A stretch of 64,000 nt of DNA from Mesorhizobium sp. RMAD-H1. GTDB taxonomy: Bacteria; Pseudomonadota; Alphaproteobacteria; Rhizobiales; Rhizobiaceae. The DNA is taken from contig NZ_JACHWN010000004.1 in NCBI RefSeq assembly GCF_014191375.1, forward strand, positions 186,001 through 250,000, in the 5' to 3' direction. Positions 10,781-15,668 of the stretch are shown here, piece by piece (within the stretch, counting starts at the first letter, position 1; each line of letters opens with the position of its first letter). Under the pieces are notes generated by a model. That model did not search any database, was not told where the DNA came from, and saw only the letters and a list, made by a program, of their open reading frames with translations. A program made the position numbers and the translations under genes.

Positions 10781-12172
10781 TTATTTCTCGGCCAGGGCGG
10801 CAAGGATGCGCGCCCAGGAGCGCTGTCCCTTGTGGAAGGATTGGAGTTCGTATTTCTCGTTGGGCGAGTGGATGCGGTCGTCCTCGAGCCCGAAGCCGAC
10901 GAGCAGAGATTCCATGCCGAGCATCCTCTGGAAATCGCCGACGATCGGGATCGAGCCGCCCATGGCGATCAGCACGGCCGGTTTCGGCCATTCGTCCGAA
11001 AGCGCGTCCTTGGCCTTGGCGACCAAGGGTGAATCATAGGGCAGCTGGATCGCCGGCGAACCGCCATGGGGGTGGAATTCGACCGAGCAGTCGGCCGGGA
11101 TGCGCGCACGCACGAATTCGTGGAAGGCGGCGCGAATTTTGGCAGGGTCTTGGCTGTGGACGAGCCGGAAGGAGATCTTCGCCGAAGCCTCCGCCGCGAT
11201 CACCGTCTTGAAGCCTTCGCCGGTATAGCCGCCGGTGATGCCGTTGACCTCCGCCGTGGGGCGCGCCCAGGTCAGTTCCAGAACGCTGCGGCCCTTCTCG
11301 CCCGCCGGAATGGAAAGACCGATGGGGCCAAGGAAGCTCTCCGCCGTGCGGCCGAGACCCTCCCACATCTGCAATATCTGCGTCGGCGTTTCCTCCACGC
11401 CGTCATAGAAGCCGGGCAGCGTCACGCGGCCGGTCTCGTCATGCAGATCGGCGAGGATGCGTGTGAGAATATGGATCGGGTTTGCCGCCGCGCCGCCGAA
11501 GAAGCCTGAATGCAGATCGCGATTGGCAGCCTTGACGGTGATTTCGTCGGCCACCATGCCGCGCAGGCCGACCGAGATGGCGGGCGTCTCGCGGTTCCAC
11601 ATGCCGGTGTCGCAGACCAGCGCGAAATCCGCCTTGAGTTCCTCGGCATGGGCCTCGAGGAAGGGCTTCAGCGAGGGCGAGCCGGATTCCTCCTCGCCCT
11701 CGAAGAGGATGGTGATGCGGCAGGGCAGATTACCATTCACGGCCTTATAGGCGCGGCAGGCCTCGACGAAGGTCATCAGCTGGCCCTTGTCGTCGGAAGA
11801 GCCGCGCCCGGTGATGATCTTGCGGCCCTCGCCCGCATCCTTGATCGCGGGAGCGAACGGATCGCTTTCCCAGAGGTTCAGCGGATCGACCGGCTGCACG
11901 TCATAATGGCCGTAGAAAAGGGCATGAGGCGCATCCGGCGTCGCTCCCTCGTGATGGGCGACGACCATGGGGTGCCCCGGCGTATCGCGCACGCTCGCGG
12001 TAAAGCCGATCGACTTCAAATCCTCCACCAGCCACTCCGCCGCCTTGCGGCATTCGGCCTTGTAGGCGGGATCGGTCGAGATCGACTTGATCTTCAGAAG
12101 CTCGAACAGCCGGTCGAGGCTCTTGTCGAGATTGGCATCGAGATGGGAGAGGACGGGATCGAGCGTGGACAT
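10781..12172 (-). CDS. M20-family dipeptidase/metallopeptidase
   Basis: A 463-residue di-zinc peptidase of the M20 family (carnosinase/dipeptidase branch). Metal and catalytic residues are visible in FYGHYDVQPVD (His, catalytic Asp), GRGSSDDKGQ (bridging Asp), LFEGEEESGSP (catalytic Glu and ligand Glu), LVCDTGMW (Asp) and a C-terminal HSPNEKYEL (His). A lid/dimerisation domain occupies about 200-350. Cytoplasmic peptide turnover is the likely role. It is the first gene of an operon with the RNase D-like gene and is read away from the sRNA locus. Confidence 0.9.
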   Translation of the reverse strand: MSTLDPVLSHLDANLDKSLDRLFELLKIKSISTDPAYKAECRKAAEWLVEDLKSIGFTASVRDTPGHPMVVAHHEGATPDAPHALFYGHYDVQPVDPLNLWESDPFAPAIKDAGEGRKIITGRGSSDDKGQLMTFVEACRAYKAVNGNLPCRITILFEGEEESGSPSLKPFLEAHAEELKADFALVCDTGMWNRETPAISVGLRGMVADEITVKAANRDLHSGFFGGAAANPIHILTRILADLHDETGRVTLPGFYDGVEETPTQILQMWEGLGRTAESFLGPIGLSIPAGEKGRSVLELTWARPTAEVNGITGGYTGEGFKTVIAAEASAKISFRLVHSQDPAKIRAAFHEFVRARIPADCSVEFHPHGGSPAIQLPYDSPLVAKAKDALSDEWPKPAVLIAMGGSIPIVGDFQRMLGMESLLVGFGLEDDRIHSPNEKYELQSFHKGQRSWARILAALAEK

Positions 12173-12622
12173 GCGGCTAACCTGATTTCGATTCGCGAGG
12201 AGGGCCGCAGACTATTCCATTTTGGGGGATTGTGCACAGGGGCGAGTTGGGGCGATGTGTCTCGGCGATGTTTCATGAGCGCTGCCCCAAAAAGACTTGA
12301 CCGCTGCGGCGAGGGGGTACCGCAGCGGCCAGATCATTATATAGAGCGGCAGCCCGGAGAGGGGGGATGAGGCTGCCGCCTGATCCGGAATCCAGCGGGG
12401 GACGGGCCAGAAGACCGGATATCGACATGTCGTCGACGCTCCTGATTTGGCGAGAGGAACATGGCGATTCAAGGGCACGAAACATTACATATTTGTAACA
12501 AAAGCGTGAGTTCGTGAAATGCGCATGGCAGCCCCTTCGCGCCGTCGGTTTGGCGTGGATCGTTTGGTCTCCTGACAGAGACTTCATTCCATTTTTCACG
12601 GGATTGTTCTAAGTCTTGCCCC
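12173..12622. other. 450-bp intergenic region between dipeptidase and polA
   Basis: Contains the small RNA candidate (12289-12440) and, nearer polA, the palindrome TTACA-N4-TGTAA at 12485-12498. The latter is in an AT-rich patch and could be an operator for the sRNA or polA promoter. No protein gene is supported. Confidence 0.7.
12289..12440 (-). ncRNA. Candidate small RNA, three hairpins with C-rich loops, next to polA (alpha-r7-like)
   Basis: On the minus strand a short hairpin (TCGAC/GTCGA, about 12422-12436) is followed by two perfect 9-bp stems. The first (arms 12371-12379 and 12346-12354) has a 16-base loop containing CAUCCCCCCUCUCC. The second (arms 12320-12328 and 12301-12309) has the loop UACCCCCUCG and is followed by UCAAGUCUUUUU ending near 12289. 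That is an intrinsic terminator. C-rich loops are complementary to Shine-Dalgarno sequences, as in Hfq-dependent riboregulators. From memory, Smr7C of Sinorhizobium meliloti (alpha-r7 family) also lies beside polA. The 5' end is a guess; no convincing promoter was found. Confidence 0.7.
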
Positions 12623-15586
12623 ATGAAAAACGGCGATCATCTCTTTCTCGTTGACGGCTCGGGCTATATCTTCCGCGCCTATCACGCTCTCCCCCCGCTC
12701 ACCCGCAAGAGTGACGGCCTGCCCGTCGGCGCGGTGTCAGGCTTCTGCAACATGCTGTGGAAGCTCCTGAAGGACGCGCGCAACACCGATGTCGGCGTGG
12801 TGCCGACCCATTTCGCCGTCATCTTCGACTATTCCTCCAAGACCTTCCGCAACACGATCTATCCCGAATACAAGGCCAATCGCAGCGTGCCGCCGGAAGA
12901 TCTCATTCCGCAGTTCGGCCTGATCCGCCAGGCGACCAAGGCATTCAACCTGCCCTGCATCGAGAAGGAGGGCTATGAGGCCGACGACCTGATCGCCACC
13001 TATGCCCGGCTCGCCGTGGAGGCGGGCGGCGACGTGACGATCATCTCCTCCGACAAGGATCTGATGCAGCTCGTCAATCACAAGGTCTCCATGTATGACG
13101 GCATGAAGGACAAGCAGATCTCGATCCCGGAAGTGATCGAGAAATGGGGCGTGCCGCCGGAAAAGATGATCGATCTGCAGGCGTTGACCGGCGATTCGAC
13201 CGATAATATTCCGGGCATTCCCGGCATCGGGCCGAAGACGGCGGCGCAGCTCCTGGAGGAATATGGCGATCTCGATACGCTGCTCGCTCGCGCTTCGGAG
13301 ATCAAGCAGCAGAAGCGCCGCGAGAACATCATCGCCTTTGCCGACCAGGCGCGGCTGTCGCGCCAATTGGTGACGCTGAAGAACGACACGCCGATCGATC
13401 TCGGGCTCGACGCGCTCGTGCTGGAGCCGCAGGACGGCCCGAGACTGATCGGCTTCCTGAAGGCTATGGAATTCACCTCGCTGACCCGCCGCGTCGCCGA
13501 GACGACCGGCACCGATGCGGCCGAAATCGAGCCGGTTCCGGTGGAGACGGAATGGGGCGCGGCGGCGCATGGGCCCGATCTCGACAAGGGAGAAGCCGAT
13601 GGTTCGGCGGAAGCGACAACGGCGGAGGTGGCCGGCGGCTCCGTTGCTGCGTCCGTTCCCACCGTCTCGTCGGAAGCCGCGGCGCTCACCCCTGCGGCGC
13701 TCGCCAAATCCCGCGCCGATGCGGCGCTCGGCCAGAAGATCGACACGACCGGCTATGTCTGCATCCGCGATCTCGCCACTTTGCAAGCCTGGATCGACGA
13801 GGCGACCGAGACCGGCTTCGTCGCCTTCGATACCGAGACCAACTCGCTCTTTCCGATGGAGGCCGAGCTGATCGGCCTGTCACTGGCGCTGGCGCCGGGC
13901 CGCGCGGCCTATGTGCCGCTGGCGCATAAATCCGGCACGGGCGATCTTCTGGGCGGCGGCATGCTGGAAAACCAGATCCCGCTCGATCAGGCGCTTGCCG
14001 CATTGAAGCCGATGCTCGAGGACCGCTCGGTCCTCAAAATCGCCCAGAACATGAAGTTCGATTGGCTGCTCATGCACCGCTACGGCATCGATATCGCGCC
14101 GTTCGACGATACGATGCTGATCTCCTATGCCCTTGATGCCGGACCCGGCGGCCATGGGATGGACAGCCTGTCGGAGCGCTGGCTCGGCCACAAGACGATC
14201 CACTACAAGGAAGTGGCCGGCAGCGGCAAATCCGCCGTCAGCTTCGACATGGTCGATCTGGAACGCGCCACCGCCTATGCCGGCGAGGATGCCGACGTGA
14301 CGCTGCGGCTCTGGCGTGTCCTGAAGCCCCGCCTTCCCGCCGAGGGCGCCGTTTCCGTCTATGAGCGGCTGGAGCGCCCGCTGGTGACGGTGCTGGCGCG
14401 CATGGAGGCGCGCGGCATCTCGGTCGACCGGCAGATACTGTCGCGCCTTTCCGGCGAACTGGCCCAGTCGGCCGCAGCGATCGAGGACGAGATCTACAAG
14501 CTTGCAGGCGAGCGCTTCAATATCGGCTCGCCGAAGCAGCTGGGCGATATCCTGTTCGGCAAGATGGGCTTCCCCGGCGGCTCCAAGACCAAGACCGGCC
14601 AATGGTCGACCTCGGCCCAGGTGCTGGAGGATCTGGCCGCCGCGGGCCATGAGCTGCCGCGCAAGATCGTCGACTGGCGTCAGCTCACCAAGCTCAAATC
14701 CACCTATACGGACGCGCTGCCCGGCTATATCAACCGCGAGACTGGCCGCGTCCACACCTGCTATGCCATGGCCGCCACATCGACCGGACGGCTTTCGTCC
14801 TCCGATCCGAACCTGCAGAACATCCCGATCCGCACGGCGGAAGGCCGCAAGATCAGGACGGCATTCATCGCCGGGCCGGGCAACAAGCTCATCTCCGCCG
14901 ACTACAGCCAGATCGAATTGCGCGTGCTCGCCCATGTGGCCGATATCCCGCAATTGAAGCAGGCTTTCGCCGATGGCATGGACATCCATGCCATGACGGC
15001 GTCGGAAATGTTCAACGTGCCGGTCAAGGACATGCCGAGCGAGGTGCGCCGCCGCGCCAAGGCGATCAATTTCGGCATCATCTATGGCATTTCCGCTTTC
15101 GGTTTGGCGAACCAGCTTTCAATTCCGCGCGAGGAGGCTGGGCAATATATCCGCACCTATTTCGAGCGCTTCCCCGGTATCCGCGACTATATGGACGCGA
15201 CCAAGGCCTTTGCCCGCGAGCATGGCTATGTCGAGACGATCTTCGGCCGGCGCGCGCATTATCCGGAGATCCGTTCCTCCAACCCGCAGATGCGCGCCTT
15301 CAACGAGCGCGCCGCGATCAACGCGCCGATCCAGGGCTCGGCCGCCGATATCATCCGCCGCGCCATGATCCGCATGGACGATGCGCTGGCCGAAGCGGGG
15401 CTCTCGGCCCGCATGCTCCTGCAGGTTCATGACGAGCTGGTGTTCGAGGCGCCTGACGAGGAGGTCGACAAGACCATTCCCGTGGTCCGCCATGTCATGG
15501 AAAATGCAGCCATGCCCGCGGTCTCGCTCTCCGTTCCGCTGCAGGTGGATGCCCGCGCGGCGCAGAACTGGGACGAGGCGCATTGA
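12623..15586 (+). CDS. polA: DNA polymerase I
   Basis: A 987-residue repair and Okazaki-fragment polymerase. The N-terminal 5' nuclease domain (1-300) includes GYEADDLIATYA and TGDSTDNIPGIPGIG. The 3'-5' exonuclease domain (about 375-570) keeps the acidic residues in FDTETN, NMKFDW and YAGEDADVTL, so proofreading should be active. The polymerase domain shows SADYSQIELRVLAH, RRRAKAINFGIIYG and the motif C LQVHDELVFE. A variable, Ala-rich linker lies near 300-360. It is divergent from the sRNA locus. Confidence 0.97.
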   Translation: MKNGDHLFLVDGSGYIFRAYHALPPLTRKSDGLPVGAVSGFCNMLWKLLKDARNTDVGVVPTHFAVIFDYSSKTFRNTIYPEYKANRSVPPEDLIPQFGLIRQATKAFNLPCIEKEGYEADDLIATYARLAVEAGGDVTIISSDKDLMQLVNHKVSMYDGMKDKQISIPEVIEKWGVPPEKMIDLQALTGDSTDNIPGIPGIGPKTAAQLLEEYGDLDTLLARASEIKQQKRRENIIAFADQARLSRQLVTLKNDTPIDLGLDALVLEPQDGPRLIGFLKAMEFTSLTRRVAETTGTDAAEIEPVPVETEWGAAAHGPDLDKGEADGSAEATTAEVAGGSVAASVPTVSSEAAALTPAALAKSRADAALGQKIDTTGYVCIRDLATLQAWIDEATETGFVAFDTETNSLFPMEAELIGLSLALAPGRAAYVPLAHKSGTGDLLGGGMLENQIPLDQALAALKPMLEDRSVLKIAQNMKFDWLLMHRYGIDIAPFDDTMLISYALDAGPGGHGMDSLSERWLGHKTIHYKEVAGSGKSAVSFDMVDLERATAYAGEDADVTLRLWRVLKPRLPAEGAVSVYERLERPLVTVLARMEARGISVDRQILSRLSGELAQSAAAIEDEIYKLAGERFNIGSPKQLGDILFGKMGFPGGSKTKTGQWSTSAQVLEDLAAAGHELPRKIVDWRQLTKLKSTYTDALPGYINRETGRVHTCYAMAATSTGRLSSSDPNLQNIPIRTAEGRKIRTAFIAGPGNKLISADYSQIELRVLAHVADIPQLKQAFADGMDIHAMTASEMFNVPVKDMPSEVRRRAKAINFGIIYGISAFGLANQLSIPREEAGQYIRTYFERFPGIRDYMDATKAFAREHGYVETIFGRRAHYPEIRSSNPQMRAFNERAAINAPIQGSAADIIRRAMIRMDDALAEAGLSARMLLQVHDELVFEAPDEEVDKTIPVVRHVMENAAMPAVSLSVPLQVDARAAQNWDEAH

Positions 15587-15630: not shown

Positions 15631-15668
15631 TTCTTCCCCTCGCACCGCTTGCGGGGAGAGGGGAAGGG
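15631..15668. repeat. Palindromic intergenic repeat, rhizobial type
   Basis: CTTCCCCTC and GGGAGAGGGGAAG pair around GCACCGCTTGCG in the 228-bp gap after polA. It is continued by GGGTGAGGGGGC with a partial complement at 15611-15620. The sequence type (CCCTC...GCGGGGAGAGGG...GTGAGGGGC) is a common short interspersed palindrome in Hyphomicrobiales. It may also act as a weak polA terminator. Nothing else is seen between polA and the helicase. Confidence 0.6.

Follow-up and report, generated by a model that had tools for sequence, protein, structure and literature searches.

An ar7 (Smr7C-type) small RNA gene beside polA in Mesorhizobium sp. RMAD-H1, with a conserved promoter and a candidate upstream operator

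What is encoded by the folded stretch with C-rich loops that lies between polA and an M20-family peptidase gene in Mesorhizobium sp. RMAD-H1? The stretch belongs to 64,000 nucleotides of contig NZ_JACHWN010000004.1 that were analysed as a whole (hereafter the window). An original prediction, made from the letters alone, placed here a small RNA of three hairpins with anti-Shine-Dalgarno loops, and took it for the local member of the Smr7C (alpha-r7) family. In window coordinates, the features concerned are:

12289..12440, minus strand: ar7 (Smr7C-type) sRNA gene, ~150 nt; 91.1 bits with Rfam, 137.1 bits with our own model
12422..12436, minus strand: hairpin 0, a small variable 5' hairpin (TCGAC/GTCGA); helix 2, 95.5% of cells paired
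12383..12420, minus strand: hairpin 1, loop CCGUCCCCC (12405-12397), with the motif GUCCCCCG at 12403-12396
12346..12379, minus strand: hairpin 2, loop CAUCCCCCCUCUCC (12369-12356); helix 5, 94.6% of cells paired
12298..12331, minus strand: hairpin 3, intrinsic terminator, loop UACCCCCUCG (12319-12310), U-run 12293-12289; helix 7
12623..15586, plus strand: polA, DNA polymerase I, divergent neighbour; Pfam DNA_pol_A 539.6 bits, with 5'-3' and 3'-5' exonuclease domains
10781..12172, minus strand: M20-family peptidase gene, downstream of ar7 on the same strand; Pfam Peptidase_M20 125.6 bits

A scan of the whole 64-kb window against Rfam gave a sole match at curated cut-offs, to RF02342 (ar7), at 12438-12292 on the minus strand. 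This match covers model positions 1-145 of 145 and, at 91.1 bits, exceeds the curated cut-off of 60; the alpha-r7 model is the one that the original prediction had proposed for the search. When E-values up to 1 were admitted over 12200-12560, four families appeared besides ar7, each below its own cut-off (given in brackets): ar14 at 30.0 bits (58.8), Scr3202 at 28.7 (52), CC3664 at 24.1 (60) and CcsR1 at 21.8 (65.3). A model of our own (R1), trained on the window plus 28 loci chosen at 88% identity, scores 137.1 bits at 12439-12291, the window itself belonging to its training set. The 5' end of the RNA would lie near 12439/12438, and its 3' end is placed in the U-run at 12293-12289. The host genome holds one copy. 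In a search of 61 genomes, run with stricter filters that lose weak matches, ar7 was matched at E <= 0.001 in 32, and over the cut-off in 24 of those 32. The matches fall in 32 of the 37 genomes of the host's own family (host counted), five being without one, and the same search found ar7 in none of the 24 genomes of other families and in none of the 14 control genomes.

It is near certain that 12289-12440, on the minus strand, holds the one ar7 (Smr7C/sra03/SmelC023) gene of this genome. The proposed membership of the Smr7C family is borne out by the RF02342 score over cut-off, the adjacent polA and compensatory changes in the stems. The identification is correct, yet not new, the family being already published. 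The locus is an sRNA known from rhizobia and related bacteria, and therefore an ordinary element; a guess made without tools is settled by a described sRNA, and a new kind of element is not required.

Published accounts of the family, as far as their accessible text extends, agree with this placement. For sra03 of S. meliloti, a set of three long hairpins was described, with polA and SMc02851 on either side (PMC2245857). SmrC7 of the same species is 148-150 nt long, has a processed form of 106 nt and is ~13-fold up in nodules (PMC2780559). Its 29 relatives come from Rhizobiaceae, Brucellaceae and Phyllobacteriaceae, and are all polA-adjacent except in A. tumefaciens C58; their structure comprises four hairpins, and the loops of the middle pair are conserved (PMC3927594). 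The position beside polA that the original prediction gave for Smr7C is thus in print (PMC3927594, PMC2245857, PMC2780559) and recurs here. One source states, in its accessible part, that Smr7C was undiscovered in Mesorhizobium huakuii 7653R (PMC5596092); the M. huakuii NBRC 15243 locus (L078) carries ar7 at 128.5 bits with R1.

How is the RNA folded? Alone (12289-12439), it is predicted to fold into four hairpins at -71.0 kcal/mol; 200 shuffled versions average -49.0, and none of them falls so low (z = -6.14). The longer stretch 12280-12450 reaches -77.1 kcal/mol (z = -4.90; again 0 of 200 shuffles), and in its best fold part of hairpin 1 pairs instead with bases past the U-run. Two perfect 9-bp stems with C-rich loops, and a U-run after the last, had been claimed, and all are present on the minus strand within 12289-12440: GCGGCAGCC/GGCTGCCGC carries the loop CAUCCCCCCUCUCC within a closing U-G, and CCGCTGCGG/CCGCAGCGG carries UACCCCCUCG and is followed by AGUCUUUUU. 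The two described stems therefore stand, whereas the total of three hairpins does not; the small 5' hairpin (12436-12422) and the GUCCCCCG hairpin (12420-12383) had been overlooked.

Conservation was examined in a comparison anchored on polA and independent of Rfam. The best 80 of at least 576 polA relatives were kept, so the sample consists of near relatives; the nearest polA among the matches listed is that of Phyllobacterium salinisoli, at 92% in the best segment, which makes the host a relative of Phyllobacterium. R1 detects ar7 ahead of polA, and on the other strand, in 77 of the 80 loci; outside the training set the count is 49 of 52, many of these loci being close kin of the 28. The R1 match is missing in three polA loci (L089, L092, L099). 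Two copies are weak (L053, 50.8 bits; L077, 72.5 bits); neither has either of the conserved loop motifs or an Rfam match at cut-off, which 11 of the 16 loci tested by Rfam do have. Five other R1 matches, of 13-23 bits and on the polA strand, were excluded. The locus labelled as Bacillus subtilis SK6B4 (L056) has an ar7 sequence almost that of the Pseudochrobactrum loci, so its label looks wrong.

Stems that were not conserved among relatives had been named as grounds for giving up the prediction. In a MAFFT alignment of 29 sequences the stems covary, with both-side changes in 27 of 37 pairs (mean of 500 shuffles, 17.7); standard pairs fill 89.6% of cells (shuffled, 78.5) and the covariation score is 0.421 (shuffled, 0.212). 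None of the 500 shuffles reached any of five measures and slid versions were all lower, figures to be read with the structure having been taken from the window's own sequence and with sequences of kin being able to exceed shuffles without structure. Among the individual helices, both-side changes occur in 7 of 7 pairs of helix 5 (hairpin 2), in 9 of 12 pairs of helix 7 (hairpin 3; 95.4% of cells paired) and in 4 of 5 pairs of the inner helix of hairpin 1 (90.3%). Pairing is weak in the outer helix of hairpin 1 (62.3%), and one pair of helix 2 in hairpin 0 is A-U in 16 sequences and G-C in 10. The loop motifs are more constant than the stems: GTCCCCCG is kept in 76 of 78 copies, GUCCCCCG being the most conserved motif, and CCCTCTCC of hairpin 2 in 71. 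The loop of hairpin 3 is variable among the 78, and 42 of them have four or more T among their final 14 nt. The RNA therefore shows the architecture expected of an ar7 member: in the middle hairpins the loops are conserved and the stems covary, and a terminator hairpin closes the molecule.

Upstream of the RNA, three further features are conserved:

12468..12473, minus strand: -35-like box CTTGAA in the conserved GCCCTTGAATnGCCA block; 74 of 78 copies
12445..12450, minus strand: -10-like box CCAAAT, 17 nt past the -35 box; majority ccaaaT in 78 promoters
12485..12498, no strand assigned: palindrome TTACATATTTGTAA, centre ~53 bp ahead of the RNA 5' end; candidate operator

Across copies the promoter block reads GCCCTTGAAtnGCCA, with ccaaaT in the -10 place, and CTTGAA starts 33-35 nt ahead of the RNA 5' end in the 74 copies that have it. 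A 2012 survey of alpha-proteobacterial sRNA families may contain an account of this motif. The S. meliloti RpoH1 promoter, given as CTTGAA-N15/16-CCTATAT in the accessible text of two reports (PMC4843759, PMC8844928), has a -35 box identical to that of ar7, while its -10 box and spacing fit only in part. For SmelC023, a review table, in its accessible part, gives predicted motifs for RpoD and RpoH1/2 and names the nodule zones ZII/ZIII (PMC7143759). As far as comparison of sequences can establish, ar7 here points away from polA and has a conserved promoter block to itself, four hairpins maintained by compensatory changes, near-invariant C-rich loops and an intrinsic terminator.

The palindrome is a feature less described than ar7 itself. 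It is probably a regulator's site, or operator. TTAC-N6-GTAA is exact in 65 of the 78 copies and has one mismatch in six more; a further one-mismatch match, at 54 bp in L058, was taken as chance. The outer four-base symmetry is fixed by the search pattern itself; outside that pattern, all 65 exact copies have T at position 9 and A at position 6, the next symmetric pair fits in 52 and the innermost two fail (27 and 13 of 65). Among the 78 copies it is absent from L053, L055-L058, L060 and L077, mostly Pseudochrobactrum or Paenochrobactrum. In 67 loci, 10 or 11 bp separate the palindrome from CTTG; in four others (L045, L090, L096, L109) the gap is longer by one helical turn, at 21 or 22 bp. An assignment of the palindrome to polA was considered and rejected, the distance from RNA to polA running from 137 to 857 nt while the spacings from palindrome to RNA promoter are fixed. 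In the 5.14-Mb genome TTACANNNNTGTAA occurs once, which by our estimate is about what composition would give, so the case for an operator rests on conservation. A search of the genome for a regulon found that one exact place and 17 one-mismatch strand-matches, with 46 for the reversed control, and a regulon is therefore not visible. A UlaR-like site was predicted in the S. meliloti promoter, where conserved upstream stretches carry no annotation in the accessible text (PMC2780559). We tentatively suggest, at somewhat below an even chance, a dedicated ar7 operator, TTAC-N6-GTAA at fixed helical phase, bound by an activator of nearly one-gene specificity. The genera in this helical-phase reading are Phyllobacterium, Brucella/Ochrobactrum, Mesorhizobium, Aminobacter, Agrobacterium and Ensifer.

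What might the conserved loops do? They had been called C-rich and anti-Shine-Dalgarno; C-rich they are, while the second label is loose because the window's RNA lacks CCUCC, which is present in 43 of the 78 copies. Pairing was computed at 76 ATG starts, taken from 271 ORFs in 464 kb by a choice that made no use of Shine-Dalgarno signals; 25 of the 76 have GGAG, GAGG or AGGA. The share of sites at -9 kcal/mol or lower, for -22..-1, further upstream, inside genes and for 20 shuffled loops respectively, was 25.0, 13.2, 25.0 and 31.4% with the hairpin 1 loop, 22.4, 14.5, 15.8 and 23.3% with that of hairpin 2, and 13.2, 7.9, 6.6 and 16.4% with that of hairpin 3. The ar14 loop CCUCCUCCC, run for comparison, gave 14.5, 5.3, 3.9 and 14.8%. 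The loops thus pair better at starts than further upstream, but not better than shuffles of the same composition, and the comparison loop behaves likewise; since a true anti-Shine-Dalgarno loop fails to beat its shuffles, the test has little power. By this weak test, pairing at start sites is possible for the loops, but to no greater extent than for C-rich sequence in general.

Perfect loop complements were also tried as a route to targets and set aside, GGAGAGGGGG being mostly an intergenic repeat and GCGGGGGACG falling below its control. The 10-mer GGAGAGGGGG, complementary to hairpin 2, has 47 genome matches (RNA gene included) against 12 for the reversed control, and of the 30 examined, sorted by eye, 24 lie in an intergenic palindromic repeat. 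Among the six non-repeat sites only L115 has a start codon and long frame in reach: a 2'-5' RNA ligase-like gene (1501-2145; Pfam 2_5_RNA_ligase2, 36.7 bits) with the perfect 10-nt complement just upstream. Long open frames near some repeat copies (L124, 266 aa; L128, 499 aa; L140, 461 aa) were taken as chance frames. The hairpin 1 complement GCGGGGGACG has 15 matches (gene included), rarer than the 32 of its reversed control. The repeat (CCTTACCCTCTCCCCG ... CGGGGAGAGGG) holds the hairpin 2 complement in many copies (L114, L116, L117 and others), and a related copy lies in the window at 15652-15667; its copies mislead target prediction, and the repeat might be a binding site of ar7 RNA in its own right. 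A published guess has the middle loop pairing with the zapA operon (PMC2245857, accessible text). Ahead of the host zapA start, GGAGAG is seen by eye, a 6-nt loop match that is little informative. The open-licence literature, as far as accessible, yielded no demonstrated ar7 target.

The best explanation overall, which we hold with good confidence, is an ar7 sRNA with its own promoter, loops that would pair in trans and a regulator acting at the palindrome. A trans-acting antisense RNA is likely. The RNA would act in trans, its exposed loops GUCCCCCG and CCCUCUCC starting to pair with G/A-rich mRNA sites; these may often lie near ribosome-binding sites, so that translation would be lowered. 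A regulator at the palindrome, together with the CTTGAA-type (sigma70 or RpoH1-like) promoter, would set the level of the RNA. Towards the pairing of loops with mRNAs, as a mechanism, we lean with some reserve. We count against it that enrichment at start sites does not exceed C-richness (in a weak test), that the perfect hairpin 2 complement falls mostly in a repeat, that the hairpin 1 complement is rarer than its reversed control, and that an Hfq signal for SmrC7 is absent: in the accessible text of an S. meliloti co-precipitation study, the kind of test that the original prediction had proposed, it was not detected, though the authors concede that binding too weak to be detected may occur (PMC2848018). 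In the accessible part of another, later paper on Hfq, a primer for Smrc7 is listed but a result for it is not given (PMC5928592). The GUCCCCCG motif and the conserved palindrome offer two concrete handles, on targets and on the regulator.

The missing Hfq signal (PMC2848018), the C-rich theme repeated in three loops and the lack of a start-site preference beyond composition would also suit an RNA that binds a protein, as a sponge, and not mRNAs. The loops differ from one another, however, and two are separately conserved, and we consider this unlikely. Less probable still, at a slim chance, is that the element serves as a 5' leader (attenuator) for the M20 peptidase gene. The two share a strand, the peptidase starts 118 nt from 12291, and 64 of the 80 loci show a peptidase match in the sequence ahead of polA, of which up to 1.5 kb was covered. 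Against this, 12 RNA loci (L034, L040, L043, L044, L046, L049, L085, L086, L093, L098, L103, L109) have no peptidase match within that reach, which a more distant peptidase would escape; a MarR-type gene adjoins the RNA in 14 Rhizobiaceae members (PMC3927594, accessible text); and the S. meliloti RNA is a discrete molecule of 148-150 nt with its 3' end assigned to the U-run (PMC2780559, likewise). A small protein gene is wholly improbable, for while GTG-started frames are open on the minus strand (12273-12599, 12212-12478), many indels separate the relatives in the alignment read by eye, one- and two-base ones included, conservation tracks base pairs, and the accessible S. meliloti report gives no significant coding potential (PMC2780559). 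On the polA side, 183 nt separate the ar7 5' end from the polA start in the window. This distance is 137-258 nt in 63 of 77 loci and 498-857 nt in 14 (L033, L035, L041, L048, L051, L052, L054, L087, L091, L094, L107-L110).

As an RNA of the ar7 type, the element can be set beside other sRNAs with C-rich loops. It shares the C/U-rich loop theme with the stress RNA CcsR1 (RF02791, CCUCCUCCC; 21.8 bits), but the cut-off of 65.3 is not reached and the structure differs. To ar14 (RF02344; NfeR1; CCUCCUCCC loops) it is likened by hairpins with C-rich loops and a weak match of 30.0 bits; that score lies below 58.8, however, its loops are not CCUCCUCCC, CCUCC is absent and it is a single copy. The ar7 family itself (Smr7C = sra03 = SmelC023 = sm13; R. 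etli ReC06; A. tumefaciens C2) is matched over its full length in sequence and structure. It differs in that the hairpin 3 loop has CCCCCUC here and CCUCC, which 43 of 78 ar7 copies contain, is absent, and in that a peptidase M20 gene comes 118 nt past the RNA, a MarR-type gene being described beside it for Rhizobiaceae. With the family it shares its place beside polA, its length, the conserved loops and the terminator.
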